Source of the DNA: Verrucomicrobiia bacterium
Lineage (GTDB): Bacteria > Verrucomicrobiota > Verrucomicrobiia > Palsa-1439
NCBI GenBank assembly: GCA_022072455.1
Contig: JAJVHY010000015.1
Location: 124,001 to 188,000, forward strand
Direction of reading: 5' to 3'
DNA length: 64,000 bases
Below the pieces are notes generated by a model. The model was not told the DNA's origin. It made no database searches and worked only from the letters and a program-made list of their open reading frames with translations. How positions within the stretch are numbered: the stretch's first letter is position 1; each line of letters starts with the position of its first letter. Below, in pieces: positions 467 to 59,172 of this stretch. The translations under genes were made by a program, and so were the position numbers.

Positions 467-3400
467 CGTTGGACCAACTCGTCGCGAAACTGCGTGAGCA
501 GAATATCACGTTGTGGGTCGAGGGCGACCGGCTGCGGTACCGGGCGGCGCCGGAGGCGGTGACTCCCGAATTGCTGGCGACCTTGCGCGAGCGAAAGACT
601 GAGCTGATTGATTTTCTGCGGAAGGTGGGACAGGGCAACCCGAGTGCGCCGCCCGCCATTCCGCGACTGGACCGGACGAGGCCGTTGCCGCTCTCGTTCG
701 CGCAGGAGCGCTTGTGTTTCCTCGATCGGTTCGAGCCGAACAGTCCGGCGTTCAACATACCCGTCGGGACGCGGTTGACGGGACCGCTGAACGAGACGGC
801 ATTGCGGCAGGCGCTACAGGCGATCGTGGACCGGCATGAGGCGTTGCGGACGAATTTAGAGATCGTGGACGGGTTGCCGGCGCAGCGGATTGTGGCGGCG
901 ATGCCGGTGGAATTGCCGGTGGTGGATTTGACGGGGATGCCGGAGGCGGAAGTCATGCGCCGGGCGGAGCTGGAAGCGCAGCGGCCGTTCCAGTTGGCGA
1001 CGGAGTGCAAGTTGCGGGCGACGTTGTTCCGGGTGGGGGCGACGGAACATTGGTTGGTGATGAACCTGCATCACATCGCGGCGGACGGTTGGTCGCTGGG
1101 GATTGTGTTCCGGGAACTGGCGGCGTTTTACGAGAGTTTTGTCGCGGGAAAGCCGGCGCAGTTGCCGGCGTTGCCGATTCAATACGCGGATTATGGGGCG
1201 TGGCAGCGGGAGTGGTTGCAGGGCGAGACGCTGGACCGGCAGATGCAATACTGGCGGCACCGGCTTGCGAATGCGCCGGCGCTCTTGGAGTTGCCGACGG
1301 ATAAACCGCGGCCGGCGGTGTTGACGCAGGCCGGGAGCGCAGTGGTGGAGACGTACCCGCCGGCGGTGGCGCCGGCGGTGGCGGAGTTCAGCCGGCTGGA
1401 AGGCGTGAGTCCGTTCATGACGTTGTTGGCGGCGTTCCAAGTTTTGTTGCATCGCTATTCACGGCAAGACGACATTTTGGTCGGGACACCGATGGCGTGC
1501 CGGAACCGGACGGAAATCGAGGGGTTGATCGGCTTTTTTGTGAACACGGTGGTGATGCGCGAGAATCTCGCCGGTAACCCGTCGTTCCGCGAGTTGGTGC
1601 GCCGGGGACGGGAGGCGACACTGGAGGCGTTGGCGCATCAAGAGTTGCCGTTTGAGAAACTGGTCGAGGAGTTGAAGCCGGAACGGAATCTGGCGCACGC
1701 GCCGGTGTTCCAAGTGTTGTTCACGGCGAATAATTTTGAGCGGACGCCTGTGCAGATGGCGGGCGTGCAGATGACGCCGGTCGAATTCATCGGGCGGACG
1801 GCGAAGTATGATCTGACGTTGTACTGGCAACTGAACGCGCAAGGTCTGGCGGTAACGTTGGAGTATGCAACGGATCTATTCGAGGCCGACACGATGCGGC
1901 GGATGCTCGGGCATTACCGGACATTGGTGGAAAGTCTGGTGGCGCGGCCCGAAGCGGGAATTGAAACAGCGGAACTGTTGCCGGCGAGTGAACGCCGGCA
2001 GGTGTTGGAAGAGTGGAACGCGACGCAGGCGGAGTATCCGACGGAGCGGTGTGTGCATGAATTGGTCGAGGCGCAGGTGGCGCGGACGCCGGACGCGGTG
2101 GCGGTGGTGTGCGGGAAAGAGACGCTGACGTACCGGGAGTTGAATGAACGGGCGGACCGGCTGGCGGGACATCTGGCCGGGCTGGGATTGGGGCCGGGGC
2201 AGTTGGCGGGGATTTATGTGGAGCGGTCGCTCGACATGCTGGTCGGGTTGCTGGGTGTGCTCAAGGCCGGTGGGGCGTATTTGCCGTTGGATCCGAGTTT
2301 CCCGGCGGAGCGATTGGCGTTCATGGTGGCGGACGCGCGGCCGGTGGTGATCTTGACGCAGCAGAAGTTGGCGGGATCGGTGCCGGCGCATGAGTCGCAG
2401 GTGGTGATTCTCGATGCGTTGACGGAGAGCACGCAGAAGACGGAACTGCGGAAGCCGCAGTCCACGGACTTGGCGTATGTGCTGTACACGTCGGGGTCGA
2501 CCGGGAAACCGAAGGGGGTGCAGATTCCGCATCGGGCGGTGGTGAATTTCTTGTTGAGCATGCAGCGGGAGCCGGGGCTGTCGGCGAGCGATGTGTTGGT
2601 GGCGGTAACGACGTTGTCTTTTGATATTGCCGGGCTGGAGTTGTACCTGCCGCTGGTGACCGGGGCGCGGGTGGTGATTGCGAGTCGGGTGGAAGCGGCG
2701 GATCCGGAACGGTTGCTGGAGCTGTTGACGAAGTCGGGGGCGACGGTGTTGCAGGCGACGCCGGTGACGTGGCGGTTGTTGGTGGGAGCGGGGTGGAATG
2801 GGACGCCGAAGTTGAAGGTGTTGTGCGGGGGCGAGGCGTTGCCGGTGGAGTTGGCGGAGCAGTTGGTGGAGCGGAGTGACGAGGTGTGGAATTTGTATGG
2901 GCCGACGGAGACGACGATTTGGTCGGCAGTGAGTCGGGTGCTTCCCAATCAGGCATTGAGTTTGGGCCGGCCGATTGCGAACACGGATTTCTATGTGTTG
3001 GATGCGTTGCTGCAGCCGGTGCCGGTGGGTGTGCCGGGGGAATTGTTGATTGGCGGGGCCGGGGTGGCGCGGGGTTATTTGAATCGGCCGGAGTTGACGG
3101 CGGAGAAGTTCATTGCGCATCCGTTCCGGGCTGGGGAGCGGTTGTATCGGACGGGGGATTTGGTGCGGTACCGCGGGGATGGGACGGTGGAGTTTTTGGG
3201 GCGGTTGGATCATCAGGTGAAGATCCGCGGGTTCCGGATTGAGTTGGGGGAGATCGAGACAGCGTTGGGACAACTGCCGGCGGTGCGGCAGGCGGTGGTG
3301 ATCGCGCGGGAAGACGAGCCGGGGGAGAAACGGTTGGTGGCGTATTTGCTCGGGACGGAGACGCCGGAGAGTGAGTTGCGCGCGTTTTTGAAAGAGCGGG

Positions 3401-6400
3401 TGCCGGATTACATGGTGCCGGCGGCGTTCGTGTGGTTGGAGAAATATCCGCTGACGCCGAACGGGAAGGTGGATCGGAAGGCATTGCCGGCACCGGCGGT
3501 GACGGCTGTGACCGGGACAGAATATGTGGCGCCGCGGACGGAGTGGGAGCGGCAGTTGGTGGCAGTGTGGGAGAGGATTTTCAATCGGCAGCGGATTGGG
3601 GTGCGGGATAACTTTTTTGAGTTGGGCGGGCATTCGTTGTTGGCGTTGCGGTTGATGGCGAAGGTGGAGCAGTTGGCGGGAGCGGAGGTGCCGTTGTTGA
3701 CGTTGTTCCAGGCGCCGACGGTGGAGCAGTTGGCGGCGGCGGTGCAGCCGAAGGCCGGCGCGGTGGCGGAGGAGCGTCCGGCGGAAGAAGTGGTGGTGGA
3801 GTTGACGGCGGCACCGGTGGATCCGGCAAGTGTGCCGGTGGATCCGCGGCCGTTGTCGTACGCGCAGGAGCGGTTGTGGTTCCTGGATCAACTCGAACCG
3901 AATACCGCCACATATAATATCGTGTCGGCTGTTGAGTTGACGGGACCGCTGAACGTCGAGGCGTTACGGCGGAGTTTTGCGTTGATTTTCCAGCGGCATG
4001 AAGCGTTGCGGACGACGTTCGACGTGGTGGATGGGAAACCGGCGCAGCGAATTGCGCCGCCGGGCGGATGGGAGTTGCCGGTGGAGGATGTGCGCGGGTT
4101 GCCGGCGGCGGAGGTGCAGCGGCGGGCGAACGCGGAGGCGCAACGGCCATTCGTGCTGGCGCGGGACCGGCTGCTGCGGACCAAATTGTTCCGGGCGGGC
4201 GATCAGGAACATTTGTTGGTGATCGTGCTCCATCACATCGTGTCGGACGGTTGGTCGATCGGGGTGTTGTACCGTGAGTTGGGGGCGGCGTATGCGGCGT
4301 TGGCGGCGGGGCGGGCAGCGCGCTTGCCGGTGTTGCGGGCGCAGTATGCGGAGTTCGCGGTGGGGCAACGGGAGTGGTTGCGCGGGCCGGTGCTGGAACA
4401 GCAGTTGAATTTTTGGCGGAACCGGCTGGCGGGCGCGCCGGTGTTGTTGGATTTGCCGACAGACCGGCCGCGGCCGCCGGCGCAGACGTACCGGGGGGAC
4501 ATGGCGCTGGAGATTTTCCCGGTGGAGTTGCTGCGCCGGTTGCAGGAGTTGAGCCGGGCGGAGAGTGCGAGTTTGTTCATGATTTTGCTGGCGGCGTTCG
4601 AGGCGTTGTTGGCGCGGTACACCCGGCAGGAGGACATTTTGATCGGGACGCCGACGGCGTGTCGGAGCCGGGCGGACGTGGAGAATCTGATCGGGTTGTT
4701 TGTGAACACGGTGGTGATGCGCGCCGATTTGAGCGGGAATCCGACGTTCCGGGAATTGGTGGCGCAGACGCGGGCGGCAACGCTGGCGGCGTTGGCACAT
4801 CAGGAGTTGCCGTTTGAGAAATTGGTGGAGGAGTTGCAGGTGGCGCGGAATCTGGCGCATTCGCCGTTGTTCCAGGTGATGTTCGTGGCGATCAACGAGG
4901 AGCAGGTTGCCGGCAAGATTGGCGGGTTGCAGACGGAGAGCCGGGTGTTGTCGACGCGGACGGCGAAGTTTGATCTGACGTTGTACTGGGAGGCGACGGC
5001 GCAGGGGTTGGTGTTGAGCATGGAGTACAACACCGACTTGTTCGAGGCGGCGACGATCCGGCGGATGTTGGGGCATTACCGGATGTTGTTGGAGGGGTTT
5101 GTGGCAAATCCGGCCGCACGGGTCGGGGCGGTGCCGCTGTTGACGGCGCTGGAGCAGAACCAGTTGGCGCAGTGGAATGCGACCGAGGTGCCGTATCCGC
5201 AGGACGTTTGTTTGCACCAGCTTTTCGAGGCGCAGGTCGAACGCACGCCGGACACGGTGGCGGTGGTGTTCGAGGGGCAACAGCTCACGTACCGGGAGTT
5301 GGACGCGCGGGCGAATCAACTAGCCCGGCATTTACTCACGCTCGGAGTGCAGCCGGATAATTTCGTCGGCGTGTACATGGAGCGGTCGGTGGAGATGGTG
5401 GTGGCGTTGTACGCAACGTTGAAGGCCGGGGCGGCGTATGTGCCGATTGATCCGACGTACCCGGCTGACCGGGTGGCGTTCATGTTGAACGACGCACAGC
5501 CGCCGGTGTTGCTGACGCAGGAGAAACTCGTGGCGACGTTGCCGGCGCATCAGGCGCGGGTGGTGATCGTGGGCCGGGAATTGACAGAGAGCACGGCGCG
5601 GCCGGTGACGAAGGTGAATTCCCGGAACTTGGCGTACATGATTTATACGAGCGGTTCGACCGGTAAGCCGAAGGGGGCGATGAACGAACACCGGGGGATC
5701 GTGAACCGGTTGTTGTGGATGCAGGACGAGTACCGGCTGGGGACGGCGGACCGGGTGTTGCAGAAGACGCCGTTCAGCTTCGATGTGTCGGTGTGGGAAT
5801 TTTTCTGGCCGTTGTTGACCGGGGCGCGGTTGATTGTCGCGAAGCCGGAAGGTCACCGCGACACGGAGTATTTGGTCGAGGTGATCCGGCAACACGGGAT
5901 CACGACGCTGCATTTTGTGCCGTCCATGTTGGCGGTGTTTTTGACGGATGAAAAAGTGGGGACGTGCCGGTCGTTGCGGCGGGTGATTTGCAGCGGCGAG
6001 GCGTTGGGGGTGGAGTTGCAGGAGAGCTTTTTCGCGAAACTCCCCGGCGTGGAGTTGCACAATCTGTACGGGCCGACCGAGGCGGCGGTGGATGTGACGT
6101 ATTGGGCGTGCCGGCGCGACAGCGGGTTGCGGACGGTGCCGATTGGGCGACCGATCGCGAATATCCAAATGCACATTTTGGACGCGCAGTTGTTGCCGGT
6201 GCCGGTCGGGGTGGCGGGGGAGTTGCACATTGCCGGGATTGGGTTGGGGCGCGGGTATTGGAATCGGCCGGAGTTGACGGCAGAGAAGTTTCTGCCGAAT
6301 CCGTTCCGGGCTGGTGAGCGGTTGTACAAGACCGGCGATCTGGCGCGGTATCTGCCCGACGGGAACATCGAGTATCTGGGCCGGTTGGATCATCAGGTAA

Positions 6401-56845: not shown

Positions 56846-56853
56846 GCCGGTTC
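56846..56853. repeat. Target-site duplication, left copy (GCCGGTTC)
   Basis: GCCGGTTC abuts the left inverted repeat and recurs at 59165-59172 beside the right one. Eight to nine bases is the usual duplication for IS1-family insertion. One base of ambiguity exists because a C precedes both copies. Confidence 0.9.
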
Positions 56854-56870
56854 GGTAGTGGGCTACTTTC
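56854..56870 (+). repeat. Left terminal inverted repeat of the IS1-family element
   Basis: 17 bp, perfect match to the complement of 59148-59164. It lies 2 bases beyond the transposase stop codon, as is usual for compact IS ends. Confidence 0.92.
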
Positions 56871-56872
56871 AT

Positions 56873-57700
56873 TTAAGGTAGCAATTTAGCAAGTTCTTCG
56901 ATGCTCCACACATGGTCAGCAATTCCCGCCTCCATTGCTGGCGTCACTCGCAAGGTGGTGTGGATGCGGCAAAAGTTGTAGTGCATGAAGTACAATGCCA
57001 GCGCGTGCTTGTGGTTCTCAATCTTCTTTGAGAATGCGTTCGTCAAACGGGTAAAGCGACGATTACCCATTCGGATTGAAAGGTTAGACCGTTCGGCAAA
57101 GCTGGTAGAAATCTGAGCATCCACAGGACGGCCAGTGATCGGAGTCTTCCGCGCACCGGTGCACGCTGCCGGACTATACCGCACTTCCCCCTGTGCAGGT
57201 TCGTTACCGTAGAGCTTTACCAGTTGAGCAAAATCAATATCCGCCCCAAATGCGCTTTCGACAGCTTGCAGATAGGCTTTGTGACCGTCGCTGGTCAGTT
57301 GCACGCGGTCAGCCAAACGAGCCTTGAGATCGTGAATGAAAAAGTAGGCATCCTCAGCACCACGACTACCCACGCGGTAAGCGGGAATCAATTTGCTGTT
57401 TGCATCAATCGCGACCCACGTCCAAGTATCGCCAATACCTTTCTTTCCTTCCATTCCCTTTGGAATGTTTGCCTGTTTGCAGTAGGTGAAGCTCCACACT
57501 TCGTCAACCTGTAGCACCTTGCAGTTGAGATTGCGCATGATGCCGTCGTGATACTTGGCGCATGCCTCACCGGCTTCCACCACGAGCCGAGCCACGGTGC
57601 GCTTGCACACGCCAGTCATGCGAACAGTGGAGCGCATGGAGCAACCTTCGATTAGACACGAAATCACTTGCGCTCGCTTCTGAGTAGTCAGCTTGTTCAT
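56873..57700 (-). CDS. IS1-family transposase (single ORF)
   Basis: 275 aa. An N-terminal helix-turn-helix (IEGCSMRSTVRMTGVCKRTVARLV) is shown only in part here: CSMRSTVRMTGVCKRTVAR. The catalytic domain has the first Asp in LQVDEVWSF, the second in LTSDGHKAY, and a C-terminal conserved block (FAERSNLSIRMGNRRFTR, then RIHTTLRVTPAMEAG) typical of IS1 relatives. Unlike E. coli IS1 there is no InsA/InsB frameshift; many environmental members use one ORF. Appears full length and intact, so the element may still move. Confidence 0.92.
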   Translation of the reverse strand: MNKLTTQKRAQVISCLIEGCSMRSTVRMTGVCKRTVARLVVEAGEACAKYHDGIMRNLNCKVLQVDEVWSFTYCKQANIPKGMEGKKGIGDTWTWVAIDANSKLIPAYRVGSRGAEDAYFFIHDLKARLADRVQLTSDGHKAYLQAVESAFGADIDFAQLVKLYGNEPAQGEVRYSPAACTGARKTPITGRPVDAQISTSFAERSNLSIRMGNRRFTRLTNAFSKKIENHKHALALYFMHYNFCRIHTTLRVTPAMEAGIADHVWSIEELAKLLP

Positions 57701-57746
57701 GGATTAGATGTACACACAAAAAATATAACCGTCAACTATTATTTGT

Positions 57747-57944
57747 GTGGACAATAAATATTCTTTGACCTATCTTGCTACTGTGAAAAAGAGAGGCCGA
57801 CCCAAAAAGCCTGAGAGGGATAGACGCAAAGAACGCCTCGACGTAAGGCTTACCAAAGAGGAGAAGGAAAAGATCAACGCCGATGCAAAGGCTGCCGGCG
57901 TTGGTGAATCTAAATGGGTACGCTCAAGGTTGGGCTTGACATAA
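57747..57944 (+). CDS. Passenger AT-hook / ribbon-helix-helix small protein
   Basis: Up to 65 aa; the start may be GTG 57747 or GTG 57783 (53 aa, VKKRGRPKK...). An AT-hook core (KKRGRPKKPER) is followed by a CopG/MobC-like ribbon-helix-helix pattern (LDVRLTKEEKEKINADAK, then AGVGESKWVRSRL). Such proteins bind DNA as dimers and act as small repressors or relaxosome-type accessory factors. The gene is flanked by imperfect inverted copies of TTATT(T)GTGTGG(A/T)CAATA (near 57739 and 57962), which could be its binding sites. It diverges from the transposase, so it may regulate it. Confidence 0.6.
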   Translation: MDNKYSLTYLATVKKRGRPKKPERDRRKERLDVRLTKEEKEKINADAKAAGVGESKWVRSRLGLT

Positions 57945-57984
57945 AGTCGCGGCTTGATATATTGACCACACAATAAATTTAGAC

Positions 57985-58058
57985 TGGACACGGCGGGGAT
58001 TGGACCCGCAACTCTGGACTGTAAGGGACCAGCGGTTTGCCGATTAACCTACGTGCCC
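57985..58058 (-). tRNA. tRNA-like gene or relic with abnormal anticodon arm, inside the IS element
   Basis: On the minus strand a cloverleaf is apparent: acceptor GGGCACG/CGTGTCC (one G-U), U8-A9, D arm GGTT-AATCGGCA-AACC with canonical A14, G18-G19 and A21, T arm GCGGG-TCCAATC-CCCGC, and discriminator A. The anticodon arm is 19 rather than 17 bases (CTGG/CCAG stem with a T-T mismatch), leaving an enlarged loop CCCTTACAG, so the anticodon cannot be assigned. UAC (Val) or UUA (would read UAA) are possible. Flanking TTTAGAC (57978) and GTCTAAA (58059) extend the acceptor helix by 7 bp. No encoded CCA. It may be a functional variant, a decoy structure or a decayed tRNA. Confidence 0.5.
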
Positions 58059-58073
58059 GTCTAAACTGAGGCA

Positions 58074-58125
58074 GGCGAGTAGCTTGTGACTACTCGCCCC
58101 AGCGGTTCTCCCCATGTAGAACTGC
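58074..58125. other. Two consecutive hairpins beside the tRNA-like segment
   Basis: GGCGAGTAG/CTACTCGCC (58074-58082 with 58090-58098) is a perfect 9-bp stem with a 7-base loop. GCGGTTCT/AGAACTGC (58102-58109 with 58118-58125) is an 8-bp stem with one G-U pair when read as RNA. With the tRNA-like fold and the hairpin at 58151 they make about 200 bases of nearly continuous secondary structure and no ORF. Confidence 0.55.
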
Positions 58126-58150
58126 GAGGATAGACGCTGTTGCCTGTTCT

Positions 58151-58180
58151 AGCGGCCACATCCGAAAGGGTGTGGCCGTT
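58151..58180 (+). terminator. Strong 11-13 bp hairpin with GAAA tetraloop
   Basis: CGGCCACATCC-GAAA-GGGTGTGGCCG forms 11 pairs (plus A-T and G-U at the base), closed by a stable C(GAAA)G tetraloop on the plus strand. A weak T-rich tail (TTGTATTT) follows. It lies just past the stop of the 238-aa minus-strand gene and could terminate either strand or cap a structured RNA. Confidence 0.45.
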
Positions 58181-58191
58181 GTATTTCGATC

Positions 58192-58908
58192 TCATATTCT
58201 TTCGTAAACATTTCCCTGCGTGCTTCTTTCAATTATTCGCACCCCAACCTCATGTTGAGCCAAACGATTGAGCACGGCACCAACGATGTCCACCGTTAGA
58301 CGCTCCTTGTGCTCAGGATATTGTTTGACGGCAAACTCAGTCAGTTCGTTCCTTCCGAACCGGTTCTGTGGTATATGTTTAATGCTCTCTGCGACTATGC
58401 TCTGAAGCGGATAACCCCGTATGATTGGCTTTTTCGTTGGCGTCAAAAGCTCGTTCTGACCAACGATAACGCGATATTTGCCAGGTAGATTGCCCCTGCG
58501 CGGCTCGACGACGGCTAAGACGCCGGTCTGGCACAACCAAAAGACGGTTGAACTCCACACATTCTGAGATAGTTGAGATGAAGGATGGTTCGATTTCTCT
58601 GCTGCCTCAAGAATCTGAGGGATTGTGAAGCTACCAGTCCAGCCTGCCAAAAAGTCCCGTATGGCTTGCCGATTGTTGCTTTTACCACTTGAAATAACCG
58701 TTCTAGGAATTGAGTCAATAACGATAGGATCGACGGGTAACTTGGTTTGGTGCTGTTTTGAAAGCGCGATTTCCTTAATCCTCAACCAAGCAGATCGCTC
58801 CTCCTCGTATGCTTTTCGCGCATGCTCAAACTGCTTGTCGAGGGTGGCGAGCTCTTTGTTTATCTGTTCAATATTCACTGGCTCACTTATTACATTAGAG
58901 TGAGCCAT
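58192..58908 (-). CDS. Unknown passenger protein of the IS element, 238 aa
   Basis: Not recognised. An N-terminal coiled coil (about residues 12-50, IEQINKELATLDKQFEHARK) is followed by two regions that look like winged-helix domains: about 75-150 (RDFLAGWTGSFTIPQILEAA, then VFWLCQTGVLAVVE) and about 165-238 (FGRNELTEFAVKQYP). This layout suggests a DNA-binding regulator. ATG 58908 is the longest start; GTG 58878 (V11) is an alternative because a palindrome and a TTGACA box overlap the first codons. Base use differs from the host genes, consistent with arrival inside the element. Confidence 0.7.
   Translation of the reverse strand: MAHSNVISEPVNIEQINKELATLDKQFEHARKAYEEERSAWLRIKEIALSKQHQTKLPVDPIVIDSIPRTVISSGKSNNRQAIRDFLAGWTGSFTIPQILEAAEKSNHPSSQLSQNVWSSTVFWLCQTGVLAVVEPRRGNLPGKYRVIVGQNELLTPTKKPIIRGYPLQSIVAESIKHIPQNRFGRNELTEFAVKQYPEHKERLTVDIVGAVLNRLAQHEVGVRIIERSTQGNVYERI
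58880..58906. promoter_or_regulatory. Palindromic operator candidate at the start of the 238-aa gene
   Basis: GGCTCACT and AGTGAGCC (8 bp each, 11-base spacer) form a perfect inverted repeat whose edge touches the ATG at 58908-58906. A TTGACA box (58915-58910, minus strand) lies immediately upstream, and TAATAA follows 17 bases after it. This would place a promoter and operator over the first ten codons and favour the GTG start at 58878. Confidence 0.45.
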
Positions 58909-58965
58909 CTGTCAAGTGTTTGATTTACACCGCTCGTTTTCCGGTCAAAAATCTCCGCAGCGCGC

Positions 58966-59100
58966 CTAACGAGGTTTTCGGTTCTTCTGGGGCGCCTTTG
59001 GCGGGATAATCGGCTTCTCAGTCAGGCGGACAGCATCCATGACCACCGATCTAGCTACCTGTGCGAAATCACCTTTGCGCTTTTTCTTTGGCTTTACCAT
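58966..59100 (-). CDS. Small basic peptide, 44 aa, in the IS element
   Basis: ATG 59098-59100 to TAG 58966-58968. The sequence starts MVKPKKKRKGDFAQVARSV and ends in a lysine/proline-rich tail (PPKAPQKNRKPR). It lies between the right inverted repeat and the 238-aa gene, on the same strand. The net charge is strongly positive, suggesting nucleic-acid binding, but there is no known motif. Too short to be sure it is translated. Confidence 0.4.
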   Translation of the reverse strand: MVKPKKKRKGDFAQVARSVVMDAVRLTEKPIIPPKAPQKNRKPR

Positions 59101-59147
59101 TCGTGAAGCGTAACACTCCGGCGAGTGTGGTCAAGACTCAGTAAATC

Positions 59148-59164
59148 GAAAGTAGCCCACTACC
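59148..59164 (-). repeat. Right terminal inverted repeat of the IS1-family element
   Basis: 17 bp, the exact complement of 56854-56870, followed directly by the second copy of GCCGGTTC. Confidence 0.92.
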
Positions 59165-59172
59165 GCCGGTTC
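59165..59172. repeat. Target-site duplication, right copy (GCCGGTTC)
   Basis: Matches 56846-56853. Removing the element plus one copy restores a short intergenic region between the serine hydrolase and nnr starts. Confidence 0.9.

Follow-up and report, generated by a model that had tools for sequence, protein, structure and literature searches.

The stretch of DNA analyzed here, referred to as the window, comprises 64,000 nucleotides from a Verrucomicrobiia bacterium. Within an apparent insertion sequence (IS), its minus strand holds a tRNA-like fold with an unusually long anticodon arm. This locus raises the question of why a transposon should carry such an RNA, and whether it decodes, regulates the element, or serves a neighboring gene.

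An IS1-related transposon encloses the tRNA-like gene

The ends of the element bear out a preliminary description of the window, which had placed the fold in an IS element. An IS1-related transposon of 2311 bp (56854–59164) is bounded by terminal inverted repeats and by an 8-bp target-site duplication, GCCGGTTC, seen by sequence inspection as a direct repeat at both ends (56846–56853 and 59165–59172). The inverted repeat at the transposase end (GGTAGTGGGCTACTTTC; 56854–56870) was defined by its arms and by family comparison, and the one at the cargo end (59148–59164) by inverted-repeat matching. The arms are 18 nt long and 100% complementary (56853–56870 with 59148–59165), one base being part of the duplication, and the same type of repeat is found across the related family. 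Lying between inverted repeats that are themselves flanked by the duplication, the tRNA-like gene is transposon cargo by position.

Present as a single copy in its genome, the element contains an IS1-related transposase, a divergent small NikA/ribbon-helix-helix (RHH)-like ORF, the tRNA-like region, and a 238-amino-acid cargo gene. The DDE transposase (275 amino acids; 56873–57700, minus strand) is recognized by the NCBIfam IS1 model (E = 1.4e-11; 44.7 bits, with a curated cut-off of 100) and by Pfam DDE_Tnp_IS1 (E = 1.4e-4; 22.7 bits, with a cut-off of 24.1), in both cases short of the threshold, and has full-length homologues across many phyla. The RHH-like ORF (57747–57944, plus strand; PF21983, 32.1 bits) has homologues at the equivalent place in L015, L017, L029, L030, L031, and other loci. 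A strong sigma-70-like promoter with an extended −10 element (TTGACA-16-TATATT; 57936–57963, plus strand) points antisense into the tRNA-like region. An inverted motif, TATT(T)GTGTGGWCAATA, matches at 57740–57756, beside the transposase/RHH intergenic region, and at 57960–57975, just past the tRNA-like gene; the pair are possible candidate operators of the RHH-like protein.

A tRNA-like fold with an irregular anticodon arm

The tRNA-like gene is 74 nt long (57985–58058, minus strand) and carries G3:U70, A73, C55, and a long anticodon arm with UUA in the structural register, as judged from ARAGORN, Rfam, and comparison with relatives. ARAGORN, which calls tRNA-Stop with anticodon TTA, and Rfam, in which RF00005 matches with 50 bits against a gathering score of 29 (E = 9.8e-8 in 64 kb), independently agree on these coordinates and uphold the minus-strand cloverleaf first proposed. 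The acceptor stem is paired at 7 of 7 positions and the T stem at 5 of 5. The D and T arms and U8-A9 had been called canonical; the D-arm GG and U8-A9 are present, whereas the T loop, TCCAATC, has C55 in place of the usual U55. The anticodon arm is two nucleotides too long, as originally noted, and departs from the standard 5-bp stem, 7-nt loop, and U33. It forms either a 6-bp stem with a U.U mismatch and C33 (CUGGUC-CCUUACA-GUCCAG) or, equally possibly, a 4-bp stem with an 11-nt loop. Neither ARAGORN nor Rfam finds a tmRNA match or tag ORF in the window.

Fold computation recovers the proposed seven-pair extension of the acceptor stem, in which the 3' strand GTCTAAA (57978–57984) pairs with the 5' strand TTTAGAC (58059–58065, both minus strand), with A73 (57985) bulged between extension and acceptor stem. 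The extension is not a general feature, because L031 has a related form and L030 has none. Three hairpins likewise lie upstream of the tRNA-like gene on the minus strand: hairpin 1 (GGCCACACCC...GGATGTGGCC; 58152–58178), hairpin 2 (CAGCG...CGCTG, enclosing an inner stem; 58100–58139), and hairpin 3 (GGCGAGTAGTCACAAGCTACTCGCC; 58074–58099), and the 241-nt region folds 4.8 standard deviations better than dinucleotide shuffles. The cloverleaf by itself is less exceptional in folding energy (z = −1.8), and the case for the fold therefore rests on comparative evidence.

Recurrence and covariation in related elements

Among transposase homologues in relatives of the same class, L030 and L031 share the layout of the window element, including a tRNA call. 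A further 160 loci of transposase homologues came from reference genomes and viral contigs. In total, 16 of 155 distinct elements (distinct transposases, with L053 counted) carry tRNA-likes, usually 80–340 bp upstream of the transposase. ARAGORN calls tRNAs directly upstream of the transposase and on the same strand in L048, L054, L059, L068, L072, L082, L137–L140, and L170. T-arm motifs are enriched at this position. A combined T-arm and acceptor scan matched at 16 loci in 82.7 kb of upstream sequence, against 5 matches in 510 kb downstream, and added L029 and a second L082 copy. Terminal inverted repeats bracket the tRNA-like gene in the window, L029, L030, L031, L048, L053, L054, L059, L068, L072, and L133. 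The inverted repeats, the target duplication, and this recurrence together substantiate the proposal of a mobile element carrying its own tRNA.

Direct DNA searches of phages and plasmids gave no match, and a D-arm DNA pattern in viral contigs retrieved mostly ordinary phage tRNAs. Several individual loci show further variation. L059 has tandem tRNA-likes (3197–3360), a Ser-like body with UAG followed by a Gly-like body, and the L133 copy (3341–3439) combines normal D and T arms with an anticodon arm of ~43 nt. A 72-nt tRNA-like in L015 (1139–1210) scores on the tmRNA model (E = 3.4e-7) and lacks a tag region. In L202 (9500–9824), the transposase is cut after 44 codons and followed directly by an inverted repeat, with the tRNA-like gene retained; this element is an internally deleted derivative. 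Two contigs come from the virus collection. L369 (1700–2911) holds a truncated L053 module with a partial tRNA and an 86%-identical cargo C-terminus, and L201 (1–1100) holds a large GGGTCAG...CTGATCC-A tRNA-like with G3:U70 and two CTTGA-N4-TCAAG palindromes, with no transposase found nearby.

The preliminary description had proposed looking for copies in which the stems are broken without compensation. In a minihelix alignment of the acceptor and T stems of 16 tRNA-likes, the stems are instead maintained, with 98.4% of cells paired, two-sided changes at 10 of the 12 stem pairs, and a covariation score of 0.90 against 0.24 for shuffled alignments and at most 0.24 for slid controls, values to be read in light of the fact that most members were picked by tools that require pairing and that the T-stem scan required five pairs. 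A six-pair helix, often mismatched beside its top pair, persists in the anticodon arm of six alanine-type members (pairing 77.8%; score 0.80 against 0.22), evidence that is weaker because the alignment rows were delimited manually. A covarying pair (C-G, U-A, and G-C) closes the 7-nt loop in the window, L029, and L030. Covariation in this arm favors the register in which the window, L029, L030, and L044 are predicted to read UUA. Comparative sequence analysis thus indicates that the window fold is a real, conserved tRNA-like structure.

Alanine identity elements with stop or foreign anticodons

G3:U70 and A73 are the identity elements by which alanyl-tRNA synthetase recognizes alanine tRNAs. 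Both occur in seven IS-borne tRNA-likes (window, L015, L029, L030, L031, L044, and L082a) and in two homologues outside any IS (L272 and L273), and by these two features the window RNA is of the tRNA-Ala acceptor type. Among the 45 host tRNAs, G3:U70 is confined to three tRNA-Ala, and the pair is enriched among IS-borne tRNA-likes (p = 8e-5). The host tRNA set appears complete without the window gene. Simple capture of a host tRNA was rejected, as the best identity between the window RNA and any host tRNA is 64%.

Other members have different bodies. The closest isotype is tRNA-Ser for L048, L059a, and L068, the last with anticodon UAU, and tRNA-Leu for L137. The L053 tRNA is of class II, has G73-CCA, and bears UUA in a regular arm; L054, L072, and L202 were tentatively assigned by eye as Arg-like (A20 and C35). 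Anticodons vary widely across the group. The ochre anticodon UUA appears in the structural register of the window, L029, L030, L044, L053, and L137, and accounts for 4 of the 13 tRNA-likes called by ARAGORN (p = 4e-5). Regular 5-bp anticodon arms are found in L053, L072, and L137, the first and last of these with UUA. In the window, UUA is read both by ARAGORN and from the covarying closing pair, and a second register of the arm reads UAC. Neither is an alanine anticodon, and the RNA therefore combines alanine identity with a foreign anticodon, as allo-tRNAs do.

Alanine, serine, and leucine are isotypes whose synthetases are independent of the anticodon. Bodies of these types with foreign or stop anticodons therefore resemble missense or nonsense suppressors, and by sequence the IS-borne tRNA-likes look like candidates for such a role. 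The earlier suggestion of a suppressor tRNA is thus a good lead, given the structural-register UUA, the regular UUA arms of L053 and L137, and the retention of G3:U70; that of a frameshifting tRNA found no support. Suppression of a stop codon in the element's own transposase or cargo was considered and dropped, as the window ORFs are intact and the cargo gene ends in TGA, not TAA.

The tRNA-like gene accompanies the cargo

The cargo gene (58192–58908, minus strand) encodes a 238-amino-acid protein with a coiled coil and two winged helices, and belongs to no Pfam family. Its AlphaFold2 model (mean pLDDT 77.9; pTM 0.41) predicts a helix at residues 13–54 and winged-helix-like folds at 75–147 and 167–237. 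Foldseek searches with this model returned only generic winged-helix regulators, none with E < 1e-3. Used as a query, the protein found no relatives in viral contigs or in 141 relatives; the family is too divergent for direct search and was therefore assembled from neighbor genes. The resulting cargo proteins lack enzymatic domains and are very divergent, at 10–25% identity. Coiled-coil/winged-helix cargo is present in the tRNA-bearing window element, L031, L048, L059, L072, and L133, and DUF5343-like cargo in L068 and L137, the latter a PADLOC candidate (PDC-M34A). L053 and L054 have a third cargo family in common and the same divergent tRNA–cargo layout, with its orientation to the transposase reversed.

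Winged-helix cargo occurs in 10 of the 16 tRNA-bearing elements against 8 of the 139 others (155 distinct elements; p = 1.6e-7), association p-values being indicative because the cargo classes were named after inspection. The common cargo of the IS1-related family consists of HigB/IrrE-type toxin–antitoxin genes (44 loci), alongside SocA/Panacea, Fic, STAND-like ATPase, and ClpP-like genes. None of the 42 elements with HigBA-type cargo carries a tRNA-like, nor were tRNA-likes found in the STAND-like ATPase elements L124, L125, and L100. On the transposase tree, the tRNA and HigBA labels are scattered alike, with 10 changes each, a pattern that exchangeable cargo should give. Most elements place the RNA 3' of the cargo gene. 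The pairing is incomplete: roughly half of the coiled-coil/winged-helix elements lack a recognizable tRNA-like, and L030 has a tRNA-like and no cargo ORF. Taken across these distributions, the tRNA-like gene is associated with the cargo and not with the transposase. A small conserved left-end gene near the cargo-end inverted repeat, with a GGLKGGKARA motif and no Pfam family, was also found at 126 loci (e.g., L080, 2230–2460) and was not seen in the window element.

BLAST of the window RNA against 286 relatives identified two homologues, L272 (81% identity) and L273 (75%), where no IS1-like transposase is detectable. At L273, a hairpin and the tRNA-like accompany a coiled-coil/winged-helix gene, with C5-methylase and Vsr-like genes alongside. 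The L272 tRNA-like lies behind a STAND-like ATPase that is 39% identical to the cargo of the sister IS element L125. At this locus (4674–4683), the TAG stop of the ATPase falls within the first bases of the tRNA-like (GGGCGCG-TAG), whose anticodon in the structural register may be CUA.

A two-gene cargo module and its alternatives

We tentatively favor a reading in which the cargo is a two-gene module and the tRNA-like gene supplies its RNA component, a tRNA-derived RNA paired with a winged-helix protein in a toxin–antitoxin- or defense-like arrangement. The recurrence of the pair in related transposons, and in one case next to DNA-modification genes, makes it probable that the two form a mobile module and not a chance association. 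Transcription would run along the cargo strand, host enzymes would trim the RNA and add CCA, and alanine would be attached. Its UUA anticodon could then cause stop-codon read-through or otherwise disturb translation, an effect that the winged-helix protein would keep in check. Such a module would act as a toxin–antitoxin or defense cassette, occupying the position taken in sister elements by HigBA, Panacea-type, Fic, or STAND-like genes. The location inside the element, the conservation of the fold, the alanyl identity elements, and the cargo association are the observations that support it. Against it stand the irregular anticodon arm of the window RNA and its alternative UAC register, and RNase P could be impeded by the lengthened acceptor stem. 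It also counts against this reading that comparable irregular tRNA-likes were not aminoacylated by Escherichia coli enzymes (PMC7609411).

A non-decoding tRNA mimic, somewhat unlikely in our estimate, would be an alanylatable or RNase P/tRNase Z-recognized fold that processes, protects, or tags the cargo RNA or recruits a protein while its anticodon arm drifts freely. Consistent with this, the anticodon arm is the least regular part of the group (a U.U or C.C mismatch, a 9–10-bp stem in L044, and the very long arm of L133), the codons read are diverse, and D arms are minimal in L015, L044, and L082a; the tmRNA-like copy in L015 and the usual position 3' of the cargo gene fit as well. The regular arms of L053, L072, and L137 and the covarying loop-closing pair argue otherwise, and the divergent orientation of tRNA and cargo in L053 and L054 precludes processing of the cargo mRNA there. 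That host or phage tRNA genes are hitch-hiking on the transposon, some as ordinary active extras and others decaying, is quite unlikely. Diverse isotypes and anticodons, tandem copies in L059 and L082, and several degraded copies are what this would produce; yet stems remain paired despite sequence change, identity to host tRNAs is low, anticodons mismatch their bodies, and neither the G3:U70 enrichment nor the winged-helix association and non-IS homologues are accounted for.

The usual same-strand position upstream of the transposase could also indicate a cis-regulator whose processing or structure insulates the transposase from read-through transcription. This explanation is improbable. Several elements have a sigma-70-like promoter with a CTTGA-N4-TCAAG palindrome between tRNA and transposase, and insulation is disfavored because the transposase promoter then lies downstream of the tRNA. 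In addition, only ~10% of elements carry a tRNA-like, the L053 tRNA is on the opposite strand and more than 1 kb away, and L272 and L273 have homologues without a transposase. Because the RNA tracks the cargo gene, lies outside the transposase promoter where one is visible, and occurs with no transposase in L272 and L273, the initial idea of a regulatory RNA of the element is weakened.

A bolder extension of the two-gene reading is a new mobile toxin–antitoxin or defense class, whose effector tRNA accepts Ala, Ser, or Leu, bears a stop or foreign anticodon, and mistranslates or reads through stops once a winged-helix or STAND-like partner releases it; in this general form we consider it rather unlikely. 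Were the module active, a dedicated mobile tRNA would exert toxicity or defense through mistranslation, a mode of action for which no description was found in the literature searched. A non-decoding mimic would extend mobile-element biology by an alanylatable RNA. The irregular, mis-anticodoned bacterial tRNAs, so far an orphan class, are given a known carrier, partner genes, and a function open to testing.

Comparison with known systems

The window element shares with the IS1 family a related DDE transposase, an inverted repeat starting GGT, and an 8-bp duplication; it differs in scoring under the curated cut-offs, in having one transposase ORF, and in belonging to elements of 2–3.5 kb with cargo. 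Transposon-borne type II/III toxin–antitoxin systems are comparable in cargo slot and gene pairing, with one protein and one RNA in the slot used by sister HigBA, SocA/Panacea, or Fic genes, although a ToxN-like toxin and a repeat-type antitoxin RNA are absent. An alanine-type acceptor with G3:U70 is shared with tmRNA, on whose model L015 scores, whereas the window RNA has an anticodon arm and no recognized mRNA-like domain or pseudoknots. With nonsense suppressor tRNAs the group shares a UUA structural register and Ala, Ser, and Leu bodies with anticodon-independent synthetases, here known by sequence; the window arm, in contrast, is irregular and permits a UAC register.

The irregular allo-tRNAs (Mukai 2017) appear by analogy to be the nearest precedent and are the only one that our literature search on IS-borne tRNAs returned; these RNAs may already have been described in the original 2017 allo-tRNA paper or in a 2017 paper on 224 structured RNAs. 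Allo-tRNAs have Ser or Ala identity with foreign anticodons, and an allo-tRNA(UAU) pseudogene overlaps a transposon-related ORF (PMC7609411, reviewing Mukai 2017). The IS-borne RNAs share with them, and with irregular tRNA-likes of soil bacteria, Ser- or Ala-accepting bodies (G3:U70) and foreign or stop anticodons. The window RNA is not itself an allo-tRNA, because its 12-bp acceptor branch is split 7/5 rather than 8/4 or 9/3, and its anticodon arm is long. Beyond the allo-tRNAs, the present analysis identifies a carrier in the IS1-related family, linked winged-helix genes, and homologues outside any IS.
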